Positions 31,010-46,021 of a DNA stretch of 64,000 nucleotides are shown here, in pieces. The number at the start of each line of letters is the position of its first letter. Position 1 is the stretch's first letter. The stretch comes from Cloeon dipterum (Eukaryota > Arthropoda > Insecta > Ephemeroptera > Baetidae). The notes under the pieces were generated by a model. It did no database searches. It had not been told where the DNA came from and worked only from the letters and a program-made list of their open reading frames with translations. The stretch is taken from the NCBI RefSeq assembly GCF_949628265.1, contig NC_088789.1, forward strand, positions 3,658,001 to 3,722,000. The letters are read 5' to 3'. The position numbers and the translations under genes are program-made.

Positions 31010-31030
31010 GTGTACTAATTTCATACAAAA

Positions 31031-32877
31031 ATGGCACACTACAAAGGAGCTGCCAGTGAAGCTGGCAGAGCGATGCAGTTGATGAAGAAGCGAGAGCAGG
31101 CTCAGCAGGAAATGGAGCTGCGGAAAAAGAAGCTGGAAGAGGAGCTGAAGGTTTCCAATATGGAAAACAAATTCGCGACGCACTACGATGCCGTGGAGCA
31201 GCAGTTGAAGAGCTCCACCATCGGTTTGGTCACTCTCGACCAGATGAAGGCCAAGCAAGAGGACATCGTGAAGGCCCGCGAGATGAAGATGGCGCAAAAG
31301 ATAGCCGAGAAGGAGAGGGAGCAGGAACGGCAGCGCAAGGCCAAACGGGAGGAGAAACGCAGGCAAAAGCAACAGATCCAGACGCTGTCGTTTAACCTTG
31401 AAGAAGATGGCGAAGAGGAGGAAGTAGAGCGGGCCGAAGAGGTGGAAGAGGCTCACGTGGAAAAAACGAGCATAAAACGAGAGGCGGACAGCAACGAGGA
31501 CAGTATGGAAGCCGACCCAGCTGTCACGGTCAAGAAGAAGATGAAAAAGAATCCTGATGTTGACACAAGCTTCCTTCCTGACCGCGAGCGCGAGGAAGAG
31601 GAGAACAAAGTCAGGGAGCAGCTGAGACAAGAGTGGGTCGCCAAGCAGCAGACGCTCAAGGAGGAGGAAATCGAAATCACCTTCAGCTACTGGGATGGAT
31701 CTGGACACAGGCGAAGCGTTAACATGAAGAAGGGTAATTTAGCTTTATTCATTACTCTTGATTACGACAAATTGGTCAAATCTAAGAGGTCTCAGCCGCG
31801 AGGCATAAGGCGGCCTCAATCTGGCAGGACTGGCTTAGCTCAATTTTTTTCCGGCGGCTGCTTGCCATTTTTACCGGCGGCTGGCATGGCTGAAAATATT
31901 TTAAACGTGAAGTTTGATAGTGTTTAATGGCCTGAAATTTGTCCGCTGACGCGGCGCAGGGTCAAATTCTAGTTAAGCCAAGGGAGGAAAAATGAATTAA
32001 CTGCTTTGACATTATCTGGTGATTTGTACACTGTAGCTTCATAATTCTGCGTTGGAACTGAGAATTGAGAGGCCAGTGACCTGAGTTTTAGGCCAAGCTT
32101 CATTTTTCAAAAATTCTAGAAAAATTATTCTTGTTTTAATCAAGGAAGAAACAAAACCAATTAAAAAGAATTTTCATCTCCCAAAATTAGATGACTTCAG
32201 ATTTGATTTTAATAAGAATGAAATTAAACTCATTTTATTTTGAAAAGAAAATAATTTACCACCTTCCTAAACTTTTCTGTTATCTATTTCAACCCCCTCT
32301 GGCTTTAACCGCAGTTCTCAATTGCAAAAGCATAATTTAAACTGCGCAGTACTTTCAATCCTCACAGATTAGAGCCATTTTCAAAGTTATTATCTTTTCT
32401 GTTCAATCTGCTTGGTCCCTGACTGAATGGATAATTTGGAATTATTCCTATTCTATCCAACAGATAATAATTTTTATTGTTGTTGCTTGTTTTGCAGGTA
32501 ATTCGATATACCAATTTTTGCAAAGGTGTATGGAGATGCTGCGGAAAGAGTTTAGCGAGTTGAAAACCGTGACTGCGGACCAGCTGATGTACGTGAAAGA
32601 AGATCTCATCCTTCCGCAGCACTACACGTTCTACGATTTCATCGTGACCAAGGCCCGCGGCAAGAGCGGTCCTCTCTTCCAGTTTGACGTTCGTGACGAC
32701 GTGCGGCTGGTCAGCGACGCGACCATTGAGAAGGAAGAGAGCCACGCGGGAAAGGTTCTCCTAAGGAGCTGGTATGAGCGGAATAAGCACATTTTTCCAG
32801 CGAGTCGGTGGGAACCCTTTGATCCGACCAAGAGTTACGACAAGTACACTGTTAACGACAAAAACTCAAAAAAGTGA
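31031..32877 (+). CDS. FAM50: FAM50/XAP5 family nuclear protein
   Basis: FAM50 (XAP5) proteins are conserved nuclear factors linked to pre-mRNA splicing and chromatin. Two coding exons, 31031-31733 and 32498-32877, join in phase to give 360 residues. The N-terminus [20 protein letters not shown] is diagnostic. A long charged coiled coil (about residues 15-120) follows, then an acidic/basic middle with a [17 protein letters not shown] segment that looks like a nuclear signal. The C-terminal XAP5 domain shows YIKEDL-like [34 protein letters not shown] and [13 protein letters not shown]. The 764-bp intron 31734-32497 holds a dispersed repeat. The start is the only ATG after the 5' UTR acceptor. 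Confidence 0.97.
31784..31928 (+). repeat. Dispersed repeat C, copy in FAM50 intron
   Basis: It starts AGAGGTCTCAGCC and ends with a 36-bp block (31893-31928) whose reverse complement, with about three mismatches, occurs in the torso-like intron at about 55421-55456. The middle carries repeated CGGCGGCTG words. The structure suggests a small non-coding mobile element of unknown class. Confidence 0.6.
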
Positions 32878-38400: not shown

Positions 38401-41400
38401 ATCGACACTGAACATGCTGAGATATAGTTTCTTCATCGTGCCCACTTTTCAAGCAGACAACCATAATTTTAGTTACAAGTAGCCCGTAAAATTCCACACA
38501 AAATATATATAGAGAGAACACAGTATGGAGTTTGAATTGATTCTTTTTTTCATAAGAGGTATGATGTATACCACAAGAGAGTAAAGATTTCAAAAATGGT
38601 TGTAAAAGTTCCCTTCATGAAATAGCGTATTACTTTTTTATTCGCCACTGCTGCTTTCCTTCCTCTTTATTGGAATTTTAACCTTTTTAAGTTTTATTGA
38701 TGGCTTCAATTTGGTCATTATCGTGTATCAATCATCCTTTGGTAGAAAAATAGTATTTTGTTTTCAATTCGCCCGCGATTTTCTCTGCTCAAAAACAGGA
38801 TGAAGCCGGCGCTGCCGCTATACTGTCCGTGGAACTGGACGATTCCCTCGGAGGAGCGCCCGTGCAGTACAGAGAAACCCAAGATCACGAGTCACAACTG
38901 TTCCTGTCTCACTTCCCGTCAGGTAATGCATTTTTTCAGTTTTTCAAAATATGTGTTGAGAAATAACGGCGGGAGTTTAAAATATTCATTACAAGTTTGA
39001 CGAAGTCGCATTTTAGGCTCCTGCGCTAAGGGTTCTAAAGGTCGAGCACCCGTTTGGCCTCTCTTTGAATTCGGTTTTGGAAAATTAGGCTCTTCCATTT
39101 TAGCCAATTCAATTCAAAGAACGAGGGAGACGGAAATTTTTTATGTTTGGCACAGTTTGTCAAAGAGAAATTCCAAGGTGCAAGGAAACATTGATAGTTC
39201 AAAATACGGAATTTTTCATGTTTTGACTCTGTAGGTTATTGAAGTTTTTTCGCGTGTTGTTAGGATTTATAATTGAACAGCAAAATTTATAATTTTGGGA
39301 AACAGTAAATTTATAGATTTTAGATATAGTTACCGTCAAGACTAAATTCAAAACACATTTTTAATGCCATTAATTTCATAGAATATCCTCCCCGTGATCT
39401 TAAAGATCCAACTCATATTATCTTATTTATTATTATTTGACTGATGATAGGCGTTTTGTTAATTCGCAAACAATATTTTTAAAATATTCCCTTGTTGTAG
39501 TTGTTTTAAGTGAAGTTCGTAGTAAGAGGCTGGAAGCTATTTTTAAAGTCGGAAAATAAAAGTGTGGAAATCAAGGTTTTTGCTTATTATATACTAGAGG
39601 GCCGCGCGTTCATTAAAATAATTGGCAGGCGCATTATTTCATACATGCGATAAATCAGTCACGGTTTCCCCATTTACAAATCTTGATATCGATGGGCTCG
39701 GGTCAAACCAAACAATTGCTTCGGATTGGGATAGGAGCGGCCCGTTATTCCGGACGGTGTCCCCTATTTCTCTTGCACGCCTCGTACTGGGCGTTGAGTT
39801 TGTCCCAGGCCTGCGCGAGCAGAGACTCGGGCACGGAGGACACGGCCCTGGCGATGCGGTGTCGCAGCTCGGCCACTGACGCCACCGGTCCAGAGTCGTA
39901 GACGTAGTCGTGCACGAAGCCCCACAGGAAGAAGTCGAGCGGCGACATTTCCGGCGAGCGCTGCGGCCACGGCGGCATCGAGTCCGACACGGGCCCGATC
40001 CAGTGGTCGGACAGGCGCGTGTCCAGCAGGTTGCGCAGCCCGTCCGAGAAGCGGCTCAGGGGCAGGTCCACCTGCAGGTACGCACCCTCGGGCAGGCCGT
40101 CCCTGCTCAGCTGCGGCAGCAGGCTCTCCTCGAACAGGCGTTGGTAGAAAAACTCGGGCGCGTCGTCCGTCAGGAAGAACGGCCCGAAAACCTTGGCCCG
40201 CGAGATCGCGCAGAAGACGGTTAGTTTGTCACTCTCCGGTTCTTCGATATCGGACACGTCCTGCGACTTGTCGCTGCCGAAGATGCACAGTTCCTTCCGG
40301 GAAACCTGTCGATTCGAATGAGCAAACATTAGGGTGGATGTGAAACTCGCACTTCCTTGGGGAATTTTAATTTTGAACAAATGACAAGTGGAGGTTACAC
40401 TTTGTTTATTGTTGTGGGGCAGCAAAACAATGTTTTTGCCCACATCCGAAAAAATATTATTGCAAATTGAGTTAAACAACTATATGATTAATGATTCATA
40501 TTCAGAAACGTCAAAGTTAAATTATCCCTAGGTGCCAGATAAATTTAAATTAAAATCAGTTCCAAAGTACTTGTGTTTTTTAAATGGTGATTGAGCACTG
40601 TTTGCAATCTGAAAATCGTGATTTTTCCTCACTATTAAATTGCCATATACACCAATGACGAGAGGAATCAATCGCAAAAACCTGCCACAGTCGTGCAAAT
40701 TTTCAAGAAATTCGATTAATACTGGCCTCTTGTAAGAAATAAATTGTTACTAAATAGCACTAACTTATGATTCATTTGGAAACTATATAAATCAGCTCCT
40801 AATATTTTTACCATTCTGAAGCAAAATCAATTGACATGAAGCTGAAGTCTGCAACTTGCTTGGGAGAATAAAAAACTGATTATATGGCATAATTCTATTG
40901 TAAGTGTTCCAGTTAAAAAATTGCCATGGGGGTAATTTTAAACTGGGATATAAAAAAGTAACAAATTAACCCGTCTGGTTCTGGTAGAAGATTGAAAATA
41001 GGGCGAATTAATCTGATTATTCGGGATATTAGCAAAATGATGGAAACGTTGAAAAAAGAAACGCAAAGCCAAGTTTGACTAAAACATTTGCTCAGTTTAT
41101 AAAAAATACTCGCAATTTAAGATATCAAAGTAATACTATATTATAAATTCACAAAAACTTGCAGATTAAGCAGAATTTCCCATTAGTGTTGAGAAAGTAA
41201 AAATAACTAAATTCATTTTGGAAAGGTTGAAAATAGTCAACGCCTTGCAAGAACTTCACGGAAAACTAAAAATATGTGTATAATTAGGTGAAAACAACAC
41301 ATTGCCAGCCGTCAATTGCTATAACGTCTGGCAAATGGCGAGCTAATTATTTCTAGTGAAAATGTAAGAATCTTGCTCAACAACTTTAGCAAAGGAAAGC

Positions 41401-44400
41401 GTTTATTATAAACGGCTTTTAAATACTTTTGCGTGGCGCAATGTCCAGTTGGCCTATGACATTTTGCTGCTTGAATAAATCAATTTGAAAGAATAAAAAA
41501 TCGGTATGTCACCTCTCCGCTCAAGAAGAAGCTCATCTCGCCGCTGAAGACGACCTTCTCGAGCCAGGCGTCGATGGGCGCGGGGATCTCCTTGATAAAG
41601 AGCAGCCTTTTGAGCGGGTCGTCGTCGAGGTCGCGGCCGATCTGGTAGCGGTAGCGCCTGATGCGGGGCTCGCGGTGCGTGTTGGAGCGCATGATTTTGG
41701 TGATGGTGGCCGGCGGGACACCGAGCTCCCTGCTGGCCCTGCGCGTCGACATGTCCGGGCTGGCGGCGAACGCGCTGCGCACCTTCTCGACCGTTTCGTC
41801 GCTGACGCTTCCGGGTCTGCTGGCGGTGCTCTTCGGGCACAGGCAGCCCGTCTCCGAGAACTTCTTGTACCACGCGTAGACGCACGCCCTCGAAGGTGGC
41901 GTCTTGCCGTACTGCGCCTGGTACCTGCGCTGCACCGTGCTCACCGACTGCGTGGACTCGAGCCACAGGACGCACTTGGCCTTCTCCACAGGTGTTGTCA
42001 TCTTCTATTGATTTTCCGCCAGCGTCAGCCTCCACCCTCCAGCCAGCCAGCCTGCCCGGCCGCCGCTCGCCAAATGAATCGGCCACCTGTTATACGGGCA
42101 CCGAACTAACCACCCCCGCGCCGACGGAAATTCATGCGCCCTGCGGCCGCCTCCGGATTCGCCGCCCTTAACTTGCCATTCCCATTCCCACCCCCGCGTA
42201 CGTGCGCGAGCAGGAAATCAACTTTGATCGAATTCGTTTATGAGACAAACTCTGTCAGCTCTATATGCTGGGGTGCACAGGCAGTAATGAACCATTTGAC
42301 TCGGGAGAGGAAAATGTTTGGAAAATTTTAATAAAACGATTAATCTGCGCTTCGAATCGGAAAATTAAAGAACAACACGAATGTGATCAAGAGCCAGGGA
42401 AAATGAAATAAAAATGCGGTTTTTTATTTATTTATAAAAAATTCCAGACATTATTTAAATCTGAACTTATTTCCCATTTTGTGGCCAGCATTTAAAACCA
42501 AAAATATAATGAATAATTCCAGGAGTGCGTTACATGCCTGGTGGAATCGCATCTGGCTTCCACCACGTAGACAAGGACAAGGTGGAGAAGCGCCTCTTCC
42601 AGGTTAAAGGACGTCGCAATGTCCGCGTTCGCCAGGTACAGTGTCACAATCAAACATGATAAATCTTTGGACTTTAGCGAATTATTCTTTTAGATCCCTG
42701 TTGGAATTTCCACCATGAACAAGGGCGACTGCTTCATTTTGGACGTGACCAAGGAAATTTTCGTCTACTGCGGCATGAACAGCAAGCGCCAGGAGCGACT
42801 GAAAGCAATCCAAGCGGCCAACCAGGTCAGAGATCAGGACCACGGTGGAAGACCAAAGGTGGAAATCATTGGTAGGATACTTCAAATGGATTCAATTTAA
42901 ACCATTATTTGGAACCACGTTTTCTTTAGATAACTTCAGCAGCGAGGTTGACGTACAGAAGTTCTTCCGCGAACTTGGAGGTGGATCGCGCGCTGAGGTG
43001 CCCCCAGAGGCGACTGGAGGAGATGACGATGCATTCGAAGCCACGCAGGACGTAAGACCTCATTTGGAGCTAATTTTAAATATTGAAAATGTCCTTGTAT
43101 TTTAGAACAAAGTCACTCTCTTCAAAGTAAGCGACGCCTCAGGATCCATGAAGGTGGACAAGGTCGGAGAGAAGCCTTTGAACCAAAATCTTCTGCAGTC
43201 CGCGGTAACACAAATTAAAATAATTGTGCTTGATTGTTTTCCAACCCCTTAACTGCTGCATTGACTTGTGCAGTTTGGTTTTGTGCTGAATTTCTAATTA
43301 AGGTGTGGTTTTTCCTTGATCTTATTGTACAATATTTTCTTTCTCTATTGCTCCGTGACGCAACAAAAACAGCAAACAGGAGGTGCTCAGGTAAATATGC
43401 CTACTTTCAAATTGCATGCGACACAGTCAATCACATGGACGCCTGAAGTAGACAATGTAGGCAACCCTCCGAGACGTCTGTGTTTCGCAGGCTGCCTAAC
43501 TCATGTTTTCACAGGCGCTACCACTACCACACACATAGTGCGCTTGTTAGACACCAGATTATTACAAGTAGAATATGGGCGATTAATTTCGTATTTTCCT
43601 TCTCACAAGTAGAGTTGTTGAGTGTTTTTAGATTAATTTCACGGTTTTAAATAGTCTTTTAGATTGCAGTTCAGCAGGTAACTGTACAAATTAATTGTAT
43701 TCAGATTTATTAAATGTTTGAAGAGATGCACAGAGATAATACAAAAAGTAGTAAAATACTTAAAACATTTAATATAGGGAAAATAGGCTGAGGATATCAT
43801 AAAAAATATATTATCAAAGAAAGGAACTAATAAATCTGCCTATTTTAGGATTGCTTCATTTTGGACACAGTCTCGTCAGGTATTTTCGTCTGGATCGGGC
43901 GAAGCTGCAACCAGAATGAAAAGGTCGAAGCCTTGAAGAAGGCTGACCAATTCTTGAAGGACAACAAGTACCCCGCTTGGACAAATGTGGGTGTCCTTGA
44001 ATTCCGGGCAATTTTTATAGTAATAATTTAAACGCAAACAGGTGCAAAGAATTGTTGAGGATGGAGAGCCAGTGGCCTTCAAGCAGTACTTCAGCACTTG
44101 GCGCGAGAAGCGCGTTGGACGCTCGATCGGCTCCGGACGAGTCTACGACATGAAGCAAATCTCTGGTACCTTCGCACAAAATTGCCCTTTTCAGAAAAAT
44201 AAAATAAAAATTCAACAGAAAACATGCCCGAGACCGACTTCAACCCCGCCTCCCTCCACGCTGAAAAGCTGATGCGTCTGCTGGCCAAGAGCTCAGGTCG
44301 CGCGTTCGGGTTCATGCCTGACGACGGCAAGGGCAAGGTGGAGGTCTTCCGCGTCGAGAACTTCGAACTCGCGCCCGTCACCAAAACTGCTCCCGGATTC

Positions 44401-46021
44401 TTCTTCGGCGGCGACTCTTACATCATCAAGTACACGTACACGAAGGGAAACAGGGAGAATTACATCATCTACTTCTGGCAGGTCGGTGGCATTTGACGAC
44501 GATGTTATGATTTATTACAAATTAATTTAAATTGCTCAGGGCAAGGATAGCACCCAGGATGAAAAGGCGGCGTCCGCTCTGCATGCCGTCCGCCTTGACA
44601 ACGAACTTGGCGGCAAAGCCACTCAAGTCAGAGTCGTCCAGGGCAATGAACCGCGCCACTTCCTCCGCATTTTCCAAGGTGACAATAATTCAATTATTAT
44701 GTGTCCACGCAGCTGGAGACTTGCGCATTTTCAGGTCGAATGGTTGTTTTCATGGGAGGTCACGCCAGCGGCTTCAAGAACTTGCGCGACCACGACACTT
44801 ACGACACTGACGGCGTCATGCTCTTTCAGGTAGAAAATCCGTCAAATTCAAAATAAACTTGTATTCGATTGCGAAATCCGCAGGTACGCGGAACTTGCGC
44901 GGAGGACGTACGCGCCGAGCAGGTGGAAGAAAAGACTCGCTCGCTGAATTCTGACGATGCTTTCTACCTAGTCACTAACCAAAATGACTACCTTTGGTTC
45001 GGAAAGGTAATTTCCAAAAGAGAGAAAAAACGATTTTTTATCCATGCTCCAAATTAAAATACATATTAAAGGCACTGAAATTTTTTTTTTAAATTTATAA
45101 AAATAGGACAGTTCCCCTGAAGAGCGGGAGATGGCCCGCACTATTTCTGGTATGATGGCCGAGCCAGATACTAAAGTGATCGAGTTGGAGGAGGGTAGCG
45201 AACCCGACGCATTCTGGAAGGTGCTCGGCGGAAAAGGACCCTACACGAGCGAACCCAAGGACGACGACAAGCCCCTGTTGGCGCCTCGTCTCTTCCACTG
45301 CTACATCCCCGAGAATGGAGGAAAACTCAAGGTCGAGGAAATTGACGATTTCGAGCAGGCGGTAAAAAACCCGATTTTTTCCTTTTCTGGCTGAGTTCTA
45401 ATAACATTAATTTAAAAGGACCTGAACCAAGATGACGTCATGGTGCTCGACTCTGGAGACGAAATTTACATCTGGATCGGCCAGGACTCGTCTAAGAGCG
45501 AGCAGGAACAGTCGATGAAGATGGCGGAGGCGTACCTGAAAACCGACCCCACGGACCGCAACCAAGACCAGGCTCTCATTTTCACTCTGCGCCAGGGCTA
45601 CGAAAACACGTCTTTCACCTCGCTCTTCCCGTCTTGGAACCCTAACATGTGGAAGGTTCGTGTGTTCATTTATATCTTAAAAAAAGAAATTTTAGATTAG
45701 ATTTTGATTTATTTTCATTATTTTATTCATTATTTTATTTGTTTATTTTTTTAAACAAAAACAGTGTACAACAAGACAATTATTCACAATTTTTGTAGGT
45801 AGCAGGACCAACTTCAGTGAGAGACATTATAGGCTTTTTTTCACATTCCAGGAGATGGTGAACAAATAAATGCTTTCACCCAGGTCTATCAGATAAATTT
45901 AAATGTGCATGGTGACTTTACTATTTAAAAAGTAACTATAAATAAAGAATTGTGCCTATACATATGATTTCAGGATGAAAAGAGCTACGAGCAACTGCGC
46001 AATGAGGCTCAAAACCAATAA
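35411..46021 (+). CDS. Gel: Gelsolin, secreted form, six gelsolin domains
   Basis: Gelsolin severs and caps actin filaments in a calcium-dependent way. Coding exons: 35411-35614, 37812-37886, 37949-38014, 38799-38922, 42523-42635, 42694-42871, 42930-43051, 43106-43204, 43849-43986, 44042-44165, 44219-44481, 44540-44678, 44735-44829, 44884-45006, 45107-45361, 45419-45655 and 45974-46021, all in phase, giving 800 residues. An 18-nt microexon at 43373-43390 would make 806. The first exon encodes a signal peptide (basic start, then [21 protein letters not shown]). G1 shows [11 protein letters not shown] and [10 protein letters not shown]2 has RLFQVKGRR and GDCFILD; G3 has DCFILD and FVWIGR; G4 has [13 protein letters not shown]5 has [15 protein letters not shown]6 has [15 protein letters not shown]. 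There is no villin headpiece. Intron 38923-42522 hosts an antisense transposase-derived gene. Confidence 0.97.
35615..37811 (+). other. Gelsolin intron 1
   Basis: AT-rich intron. A CpG-richer patch at about 36880-37040 could be a second promoter for a cytoplasmic isoform lacking the signal peptide, as flies have, but no start codon or clear donor was found to support this. Nothing else is recognised. Confidence 0.3.
38923..39744. other. Gelsolin intron 4, left flank of the nested gene
   Basis: AT-rich. It would hold the 3' UTR of the antisense transposase-derived gene. No terminal inverted repeat or target duplication bounding that gene could be recognised here or to the right of it. Confidence 0.35.
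39745..42001 (-). CDS. Mariner-type transposase-derived gene, catalytic residues altered
   Basis: Two exons (41513-42001 and 39745-40305) join in phase across a 1207-bp GT-AG intron into 349 residues, full length for insect mariner-related transposases. Residues 1-115 form paired helix-turn-helix DNA-binding domains ([38 protein letters not shown]). The RNase-H-like core follows: [15 protein letters not shown] then [11 protein letters not shown] across the splice, VFGPFFL, and [19 protein letters not shown]. In active relatives the first catalytic Asp lies in FSDE; here it is FSGE. The second lies in QQDGAPPH; here the aligned stretch is LQVDLPLSR, with Val at the Asp position. SPD has become SPE, while the D of PLDFF remains. 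No stop or frameshift occurs. Exons are strongly GC- and CpG-rich, while the intron and host intron are AT-rich. It lies antisense inside gelsolin intron 4. Domestication as a DNA-binding protein is an inference; a young but inactive element is the alternative. Confidence 0.85.
42002..42522. other. Gelsolin intron 4, upstream side of the nested gene
   Basis: The block 42002-42210 is markedly GC- and CpG-rich and lies immediately 5' of the antisense transposase-derived ATG, so it may be its promoter. The rest is AT-rich up to the gelsolin exon at 42523. Confidence 0.35.
43373..43390 (+). CDS. Gel: Probable 18-nt gelsolin microexon
   Basis: Between exons 43106-43204 and 43849-43986 (phase 0 on both sides) lies a pyrimidine tract (TTTTCTTTCTCTATTGCTCC), an AG at 43371-43372, 18 nt encoding QTGGAQ, and a donor (CAG|gtaaat). 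It adds six residues without changing frame, just before the G3 strand DCFILD. It could be constitutive or alternative. Confidence 0.5.

Follow-up and report, generated by a model that had tools for sequence, protein, structure and literature searches.

A 64,000-nucleotide window of the Cloeon dipterum genome (Ephemeroptera; NC_088789.1, positions 3,658,001–3,722,000) contains a gene that lies antisense within an intron of a gelsolin gene. This nested gene probably encodes a domesticated Tc1/mariner-type transposase that appears to have lost DNA cleavage and to serve as a DNA-binding protein; we assign this reading, which is drawn from a single genome, a probability of about 0.75. Recruitment is suggested by an intact two-exon frame, the detection of only one copy, the absence of a terminal inverted repeat (TIR) above chance, a retained helix-turn-helix (HTH) region, replacement of the first catalytic aspartate (D154G), and host-like codon use. 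The initial annotation had proposed host recruitment as well. That proposal remains the best supported by copy number, TIRs, and codon use, although part of its catalytic argument was wrong because two of the three catalytic aspartates are retained.

The two exons of the nested gene, located on the minus strand, are predicted to splice into 349 codons followed by TAA, without a stop or frameshift (Table 1). This frame, its GT...AG splice sites, and its stop codon were found where they had been placed initially. Nesting in gelsolin was confirmed: the flanking exons, joined in frame, encode an uninterrupted piece of gelsolin whose closest PDB hit has E = 2.9e-27, and the Gelsolin Pfam repeat was matched beyond at 42694–42870 and 45416–45697. 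GT/AG pairs near both ends of the nested gene's intron leave the frame open in 15 of 48 cases. An open junction is therefore not rare, and openness alone is insufficient to fix the splice junction. Among the 15 open junctions, the pair 41512/40306 gives the longest product, and with it both halves align to an intact maT-like transposase from this genome in almost unbroken register (one-residue gap).

If left unspliced, exon 1 stays open for 10 codons of the intron before a stop is reached (41480–41512, minus strand). The predicted product has 173 residues and contains both HTH units but not the catalytic half. This read-through, together with splice sites that are not strong and the number of nearby pairs that keep the frame, is compatible with a model in which each exon is a separate remnant and no splicing takes place, leaving either a DNA-binding-only protein or a pseudogene. 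However, the coding composition of exon 2 equals that of exon 1 (GC content [guanine plus cytosine] at four-fold sites of 0.887 and 0.897, respectively), and the junction restores near-register with the maT-like transposase. We consider independent exons highly unlikely.

The C-terminal half of the protein aligns to the catalytic domains of Tc1/mariner transposases. Its nearest sequences found in the genome are maT-like transposases (22–25% identity); for one of these (L004), phmmer gave alignments with Sleeping Beauty at E = 1.7e-10 and with Mos1 at E = 1.9e-5. These alignments fix the positions of the catalytic triad in the nested protein, given the known triad residues of Mos1 and Sleeping Beauty. 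Both the alignment to the maT-like transposase and a four-way alignment of the nested protein, maT-like transposase, Sleeping Beauty, and Mos1 place glycine at the first catalytic position (G154, in FSGE). The second position is occupied by D243 (QVD) and the third by D287 (PLD in SPEMSPLD). Thus, a complete DDD/E triad is lacking, with D243 and D287 present and G154 in place of the first aspartate. The initial annotation had all three positions lost; only the loss of the first holds. The valine read as the second position is the residue that precedes D243 in the alignment, and the aspartate of SPD, which is glutamate here, is conserved but lies outside the triad. The second and third aspartates (D2 and D3) are separated by 43 residues in the nested protein and, by count, 37 in the maT-like proteins.

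The three acidic residues of the triad bind metal ions in the Tc1/mariner superfamily. Retention of the second and third aspartates and the presence of E155 next to G154 might suggest a highly divergent transposase that remains active by using another acidic residue, such as E155, near the first position. However, maT, Sleeping Beauty, and Mos1 share this glutamate, which indicates that it is independently conserved and not a shifted catalytic residue. The single copy and absence of TIRs above chance also argue against continued activity, to which we give almost no credence.

The N-terminal half of the protein was matched by DUF4817 (PF16087) at residues 6–54 with a score of 25.7 bits (cut-off, 22.6), whereas a match to HTH_32 (26.6 bits) fell below its cut-off of 33.7. 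The AlphaFold2 model of exon 1 alone was poor overall (mean predicted local distance difference test [pLDDT] score of 47.4). Confidence was limited to a three-helix unit at approximately residues 65–105 (helices 68–80, 86–93, and 97–105), with pLDDT means for 10-residue blocks of 85–87 across residues 71–100. A Foldseek search with this model returned nothing at E ≤ 0.001; the weak matches included the DNA-binding domain of SETMAR at E = 0.11 and paired domains of Pax proteins at E = 0.26–0.29. The model and these matches are consistent with an HTH fold but prove little. By profile match and model, the protein has the N-terminal HTH DNA-binding domain typical of Tc1/mariner transposases. Matches to annexin and myosin, at E = 0.0014 or weaker, were dismissed as chance.

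The assembly comprises 190 Mb, nearly all of which is in five contigs (C1, C2, C4, and C5 of 43.2, 37.5, 36.4, and 33.2 Mb; C3 of more than 36.4 Mb). A search of this genome with the 349-residue translation, aimed at the near-identical copies that would have spoken against recruitment, found none; the nested gene is the only copy found. Exon 1, the intron, and the downstream flank, each used as a DNA query, matched this place only. With the whole protein as query, the hits were the two exons of the gene itself and three maT-like places. At E ≤ 10, the exon 1 protein query recovered its own place plus two weak hits, at E = 0.35 and E = 1.5, and the exon 2 query its own place plus 13 others. The PF16087 profile had a single match in the genome, the nested gene, and matched none of 14 control genomes. 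PF01359 gave no match in this genome or the 14 controls and is hence uninformative. The multiple copies expected of a mobile element in its host were not found, and a single copy is what is expected of a domesticated gene.

The 13 places found with exon 2 also appear among 49 matches of a DDE_3 search of the genome. They are distributed over all five large contigs and consist of 11 frames of 343–344 codons and two of 271; three (L004–L006) were read, and the others were assigned to the family by frame length and match. Because a family this distant was found at 13 places, a live family would be seen. The distant family is maT-like and DD37D by count, and it looks recently active. Around D2, L005 and L006 share a changed motif, QKDVAPAH, and L004 has QQDGAPAH.

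The initial annotation had recognized no terminal repeats around the gene, and an ungapped comparison of 38922–39744 with 42002–42521 agreed: no TIR stood above chance, as 79 of 100 shuffles reached the best match. A 14-nucleotide pair at 39148/42244 is one among many short pairs alike. Since the ends of an element were not located, a flanking TA could not be assigned. An intact frame that lacks the hallmarks of a transposable element is the pattern of a domesticated gene.

The codon use of the nested gene resembles that of host genes and not that of the mobile elements sampled, although the fit is imperfect. Its exons have a GC content of 0.648 and 0.644, compared to 0.326 for its intron and 0.349 for the downstream flank; flanks outside the GC-rich upstream stretch (0.64) range from 0.33 to 0.35. 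The contrast between GC-rich exons and AT-rich surroundings noted earlier is therefore real. The accompanying claim for CpG applies to the intron (observed/expected ratio of 0.82 vs 1.15 and 1.13 in the exons) but not to the downstream flank, where a ratio of 1.22 fails to separate it from the exons. GC content by codon position is 0.58/0.47/0.89. Values at the third position were 0.64–0.77 in six host open stretches (two of which, 44203–44493 and 45107–45391, have no Pfam match and were called gelsolin exons by position only), 0.71–0.785 in two actin exons, and 0.37–0.56 in seven mobile-element open reading frames (ORFs), so labelled by DDE_3 or transposase matches and reading. The actin exons and mobile-element ORFs came from twelve measured loci, three of which were dropped (L015 and L019, whose longest frames are antisense to actin, and L020, which repeats L014). 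Correlation coefficients for codon use were 0.74 against the host stretches, 0.54 against actin, and −0.07 against four mobile-element ORFs; much of this signal is third-position GC.

To gauge neutral decay, random substitutions were introduced into the present sequence under two mutation spectra, without indels, in 200 runs per point. Stop-free runs amounted to 50–53% at 0.02 substitutions per site, 13–16% at 0.05, 3–4% at 0.1, and 0–1% at 0.15, at which point third-position GC had dropped to 0.77–0.81. The few stop-free runs at 0.1–0.15 make an old dead copy unlikely. They bear less on a single-copy insertion that entered the lineage recently, possibly by horizontal transfer, was inactivated by D154G, and is too young to have acquired stops. 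An early dead copy would look like this, its frame still intact and its triad changed at a single position, and about half of the neutral runs were still stop-free at 0.02 substitutions per site. However, a young copy should keep its TIRs, and none was detected above chance; the genome searches turned up no sister copy; and the exons are 65% GC, compared to 33–35% for the intron and outer flanks. In addition, changes at core columns of the catalytic half, which include Y170C, F240L, P246L, H248R, D282E, and L283M, suggest a long period without catalytic constraint. Recent inactivation is thus unlikely in our judgment, and domestication remains the preferred reading.

Several observations weigh against domestication. 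The 349-residue protein matched no DDE Pfam model at E ≤ 1, and the RNase-H-like half is eroded, as that of a decaying copy might be: of the 21 columns at which maT, Sleeping Beauty, and Mos1 agree, it keeps 8, and 13 are changed. Some of these 21 columns are chance identities because the four-way alignment is loose outside the motifs. The initial description of the RNase-H-like region as complete thus holds only in part. Only 117 of 3141 single changes create a stop, and the five other frames hold 2 to 9 stops; GC-rich exons are intrinsically stop-poor, so that frame integrity alone is weak evidence. GC at third positions is higher than in any of the sampled host stretches, and part of it may come from a GC-rich source rather than from host adaptation. 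The splice donor has no G at +5, and the pyrimidine tract of the acceptor is poor. Finally, the genome search scores best candidates only, and a degraded relative could escape it.

Table 1 Features of the nested gene and the enclosing gelsolin intron (positions within the window).
Feature	Position	Strand	Description
Exon 1	41513..42001	−	ATG, 163 codons; DUF4817 HTH at residues 6–54, second HTH at about residues 65–105, linker, first catalytic strand with FSGE (G154)
Intron of nested gene	40306..41512	−	1207 nt, GTGACA...CGACAG, 33% GC, single copy in genome
Exon 2	39745..40305	−	186 codons and TAA; remaining RNase-H-like region, D243 and D287 retained
Candidate 5' untranslated region/promoter of nested gene	42002..42220	−	219 nt adjoining ATG, 64% GC; putative role
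TATAA-like sequence	42090-42094		Within GC-rich stretch upstream of nested gene
A at −3			Start codon of nested gene
AATAAA, candidate polyadenylation signal	39426..39431	−	About 314 nt past stop codon; putative role
Gelsolin intron	38923..42522	+	Encloses entire nested gene

An XAP5 family gene, matched by Pfam at 32581–32874 with 129.6 bits, occupies 31019–32874 on the plus strand, on the lower-coordinate side of gelsolin. Elsewhere in the genome, the first 6 kb of contig C1 (L011 1–6000) consist of an AT-rich satellite, degenerate in sequence, whose nested periods measure approximately 50, 106, 146, and 350 nucleotides; no array of the telomere repeat TTAGG was listed at the two ends of C1, the sole contig examined. 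A short COX1-like fragment with stops on contig C2 (L008 1501–1638), below the Pfam cut-off, is perhaps a nuclear mitochondrial insert.

In comparing the nested protein with named families, we found the nearest candidates to be rosa (DD41D) and maT (DD37D), within the Tc1/mariner transposases that bear PF16087; rosa was compared by description only. The accessible part of PMC5490172 describes rosa as a DD41D family near maT. Features common to these families and the nested protein are the HTH domain, a colinear RNase-H-like half, and both D2 and D3. The D2–D3 gap of 43 is close to the 41 of rosa but fits no family named in the accessible parts of PMC5490172 and PMC7325037. From active Tc1/mariner elements, the nested gene differs by the glycine at the first aspartate, the lack of a TIR above chance, its single copy, and its intron.

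Relatives beyond this genome were sought as well. None was found in viral contigs by protein search and three degenerate motif patterns, or in prokaryote contigs by pattern and alignment (85 pattern matches, none confirmed), and phages gave no match. Plasmids returned 24 records; among the 20 records listed, matches to IS630-type sequences covered no more than 28% of the query, with E between 0.2 and 0.4.

Domestication of transposases is already known, and the nested gene looks like a new candidate case. SETMAR (derived from Hsmar1) and CENP-B and TIGD (both derived from pogo) are host genes that arose from transposases of the Tc1/mariner superfamily, and CENP-B binds DNA, as stated in the accessible part of PMC7325037. 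Exon 1 weakly matches the DNA-binding domain of SETMAR (phmmer, E = 0.083; the Foldseek match is given above). However, SETMAR is a fusion, which the nested gene is not, and SETMAR and CENP-B/TIGD derive from other transposase families. BPLG1 and BPLG2 of cockroaches are domesticated PIF/Harbinger genes with two exons; the accessible text of PMC9710019 lists as criteria an intact frame, absence of TIRs and target-site duplications, conserved introns, and the ratio of nonsynonymous to synonymous substitution rates (dN/dS). Such insect genes, as described there, have the same intact, two-exon, transposase-like structure without TIRs as the nested gene. They belong to another superfamily, and orthologues and purifying selection are reported for them in that text, whereas the nested gene is known from one genome. 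Transposon-derived transcription factors from six families occur across animals, according to the available portion of PMC10027918. No report of a domesticated DUF4817 transposase was found in the open-access literature by title and start of abstract; one may be in print elsewhere.

These observations suggest a model in which the GC-rich stretch upstream of the nested gene would drive its transcription, on the strand opposite gelsolin, and the transcript would be spliced to encode a nuclear protein. The two HTH units of this protein may bind DNA in a sequence-specific manner. The protein would be unable to cut DNA, because metal binding requires all three acidic residues. Most likely, it would act as a regulator that binds either host sites or what remains of the ends of the old element. 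It is tempting to go further and speculate that the gene is a case of domestication not described before, in which a DUF4817-type Tc1/mariner transposase, perhaps related to rosa, became a cleavage-dead, sequence-specific binder of DNA with its own promoter in the gelsolin intron and two possibly competing products, the spliced 349-residue protein and the 173-residue DNA-binding half made by intron retention. We regard this elaborate version as rather improbable. If the nested gene was indeed domesticated, another Tc1/mariner subgroup would join the sources of host DNA-binding proteins. Because searches of this compact genome turned up nothing else from the parental family, the gene would also be the only record left of the element.

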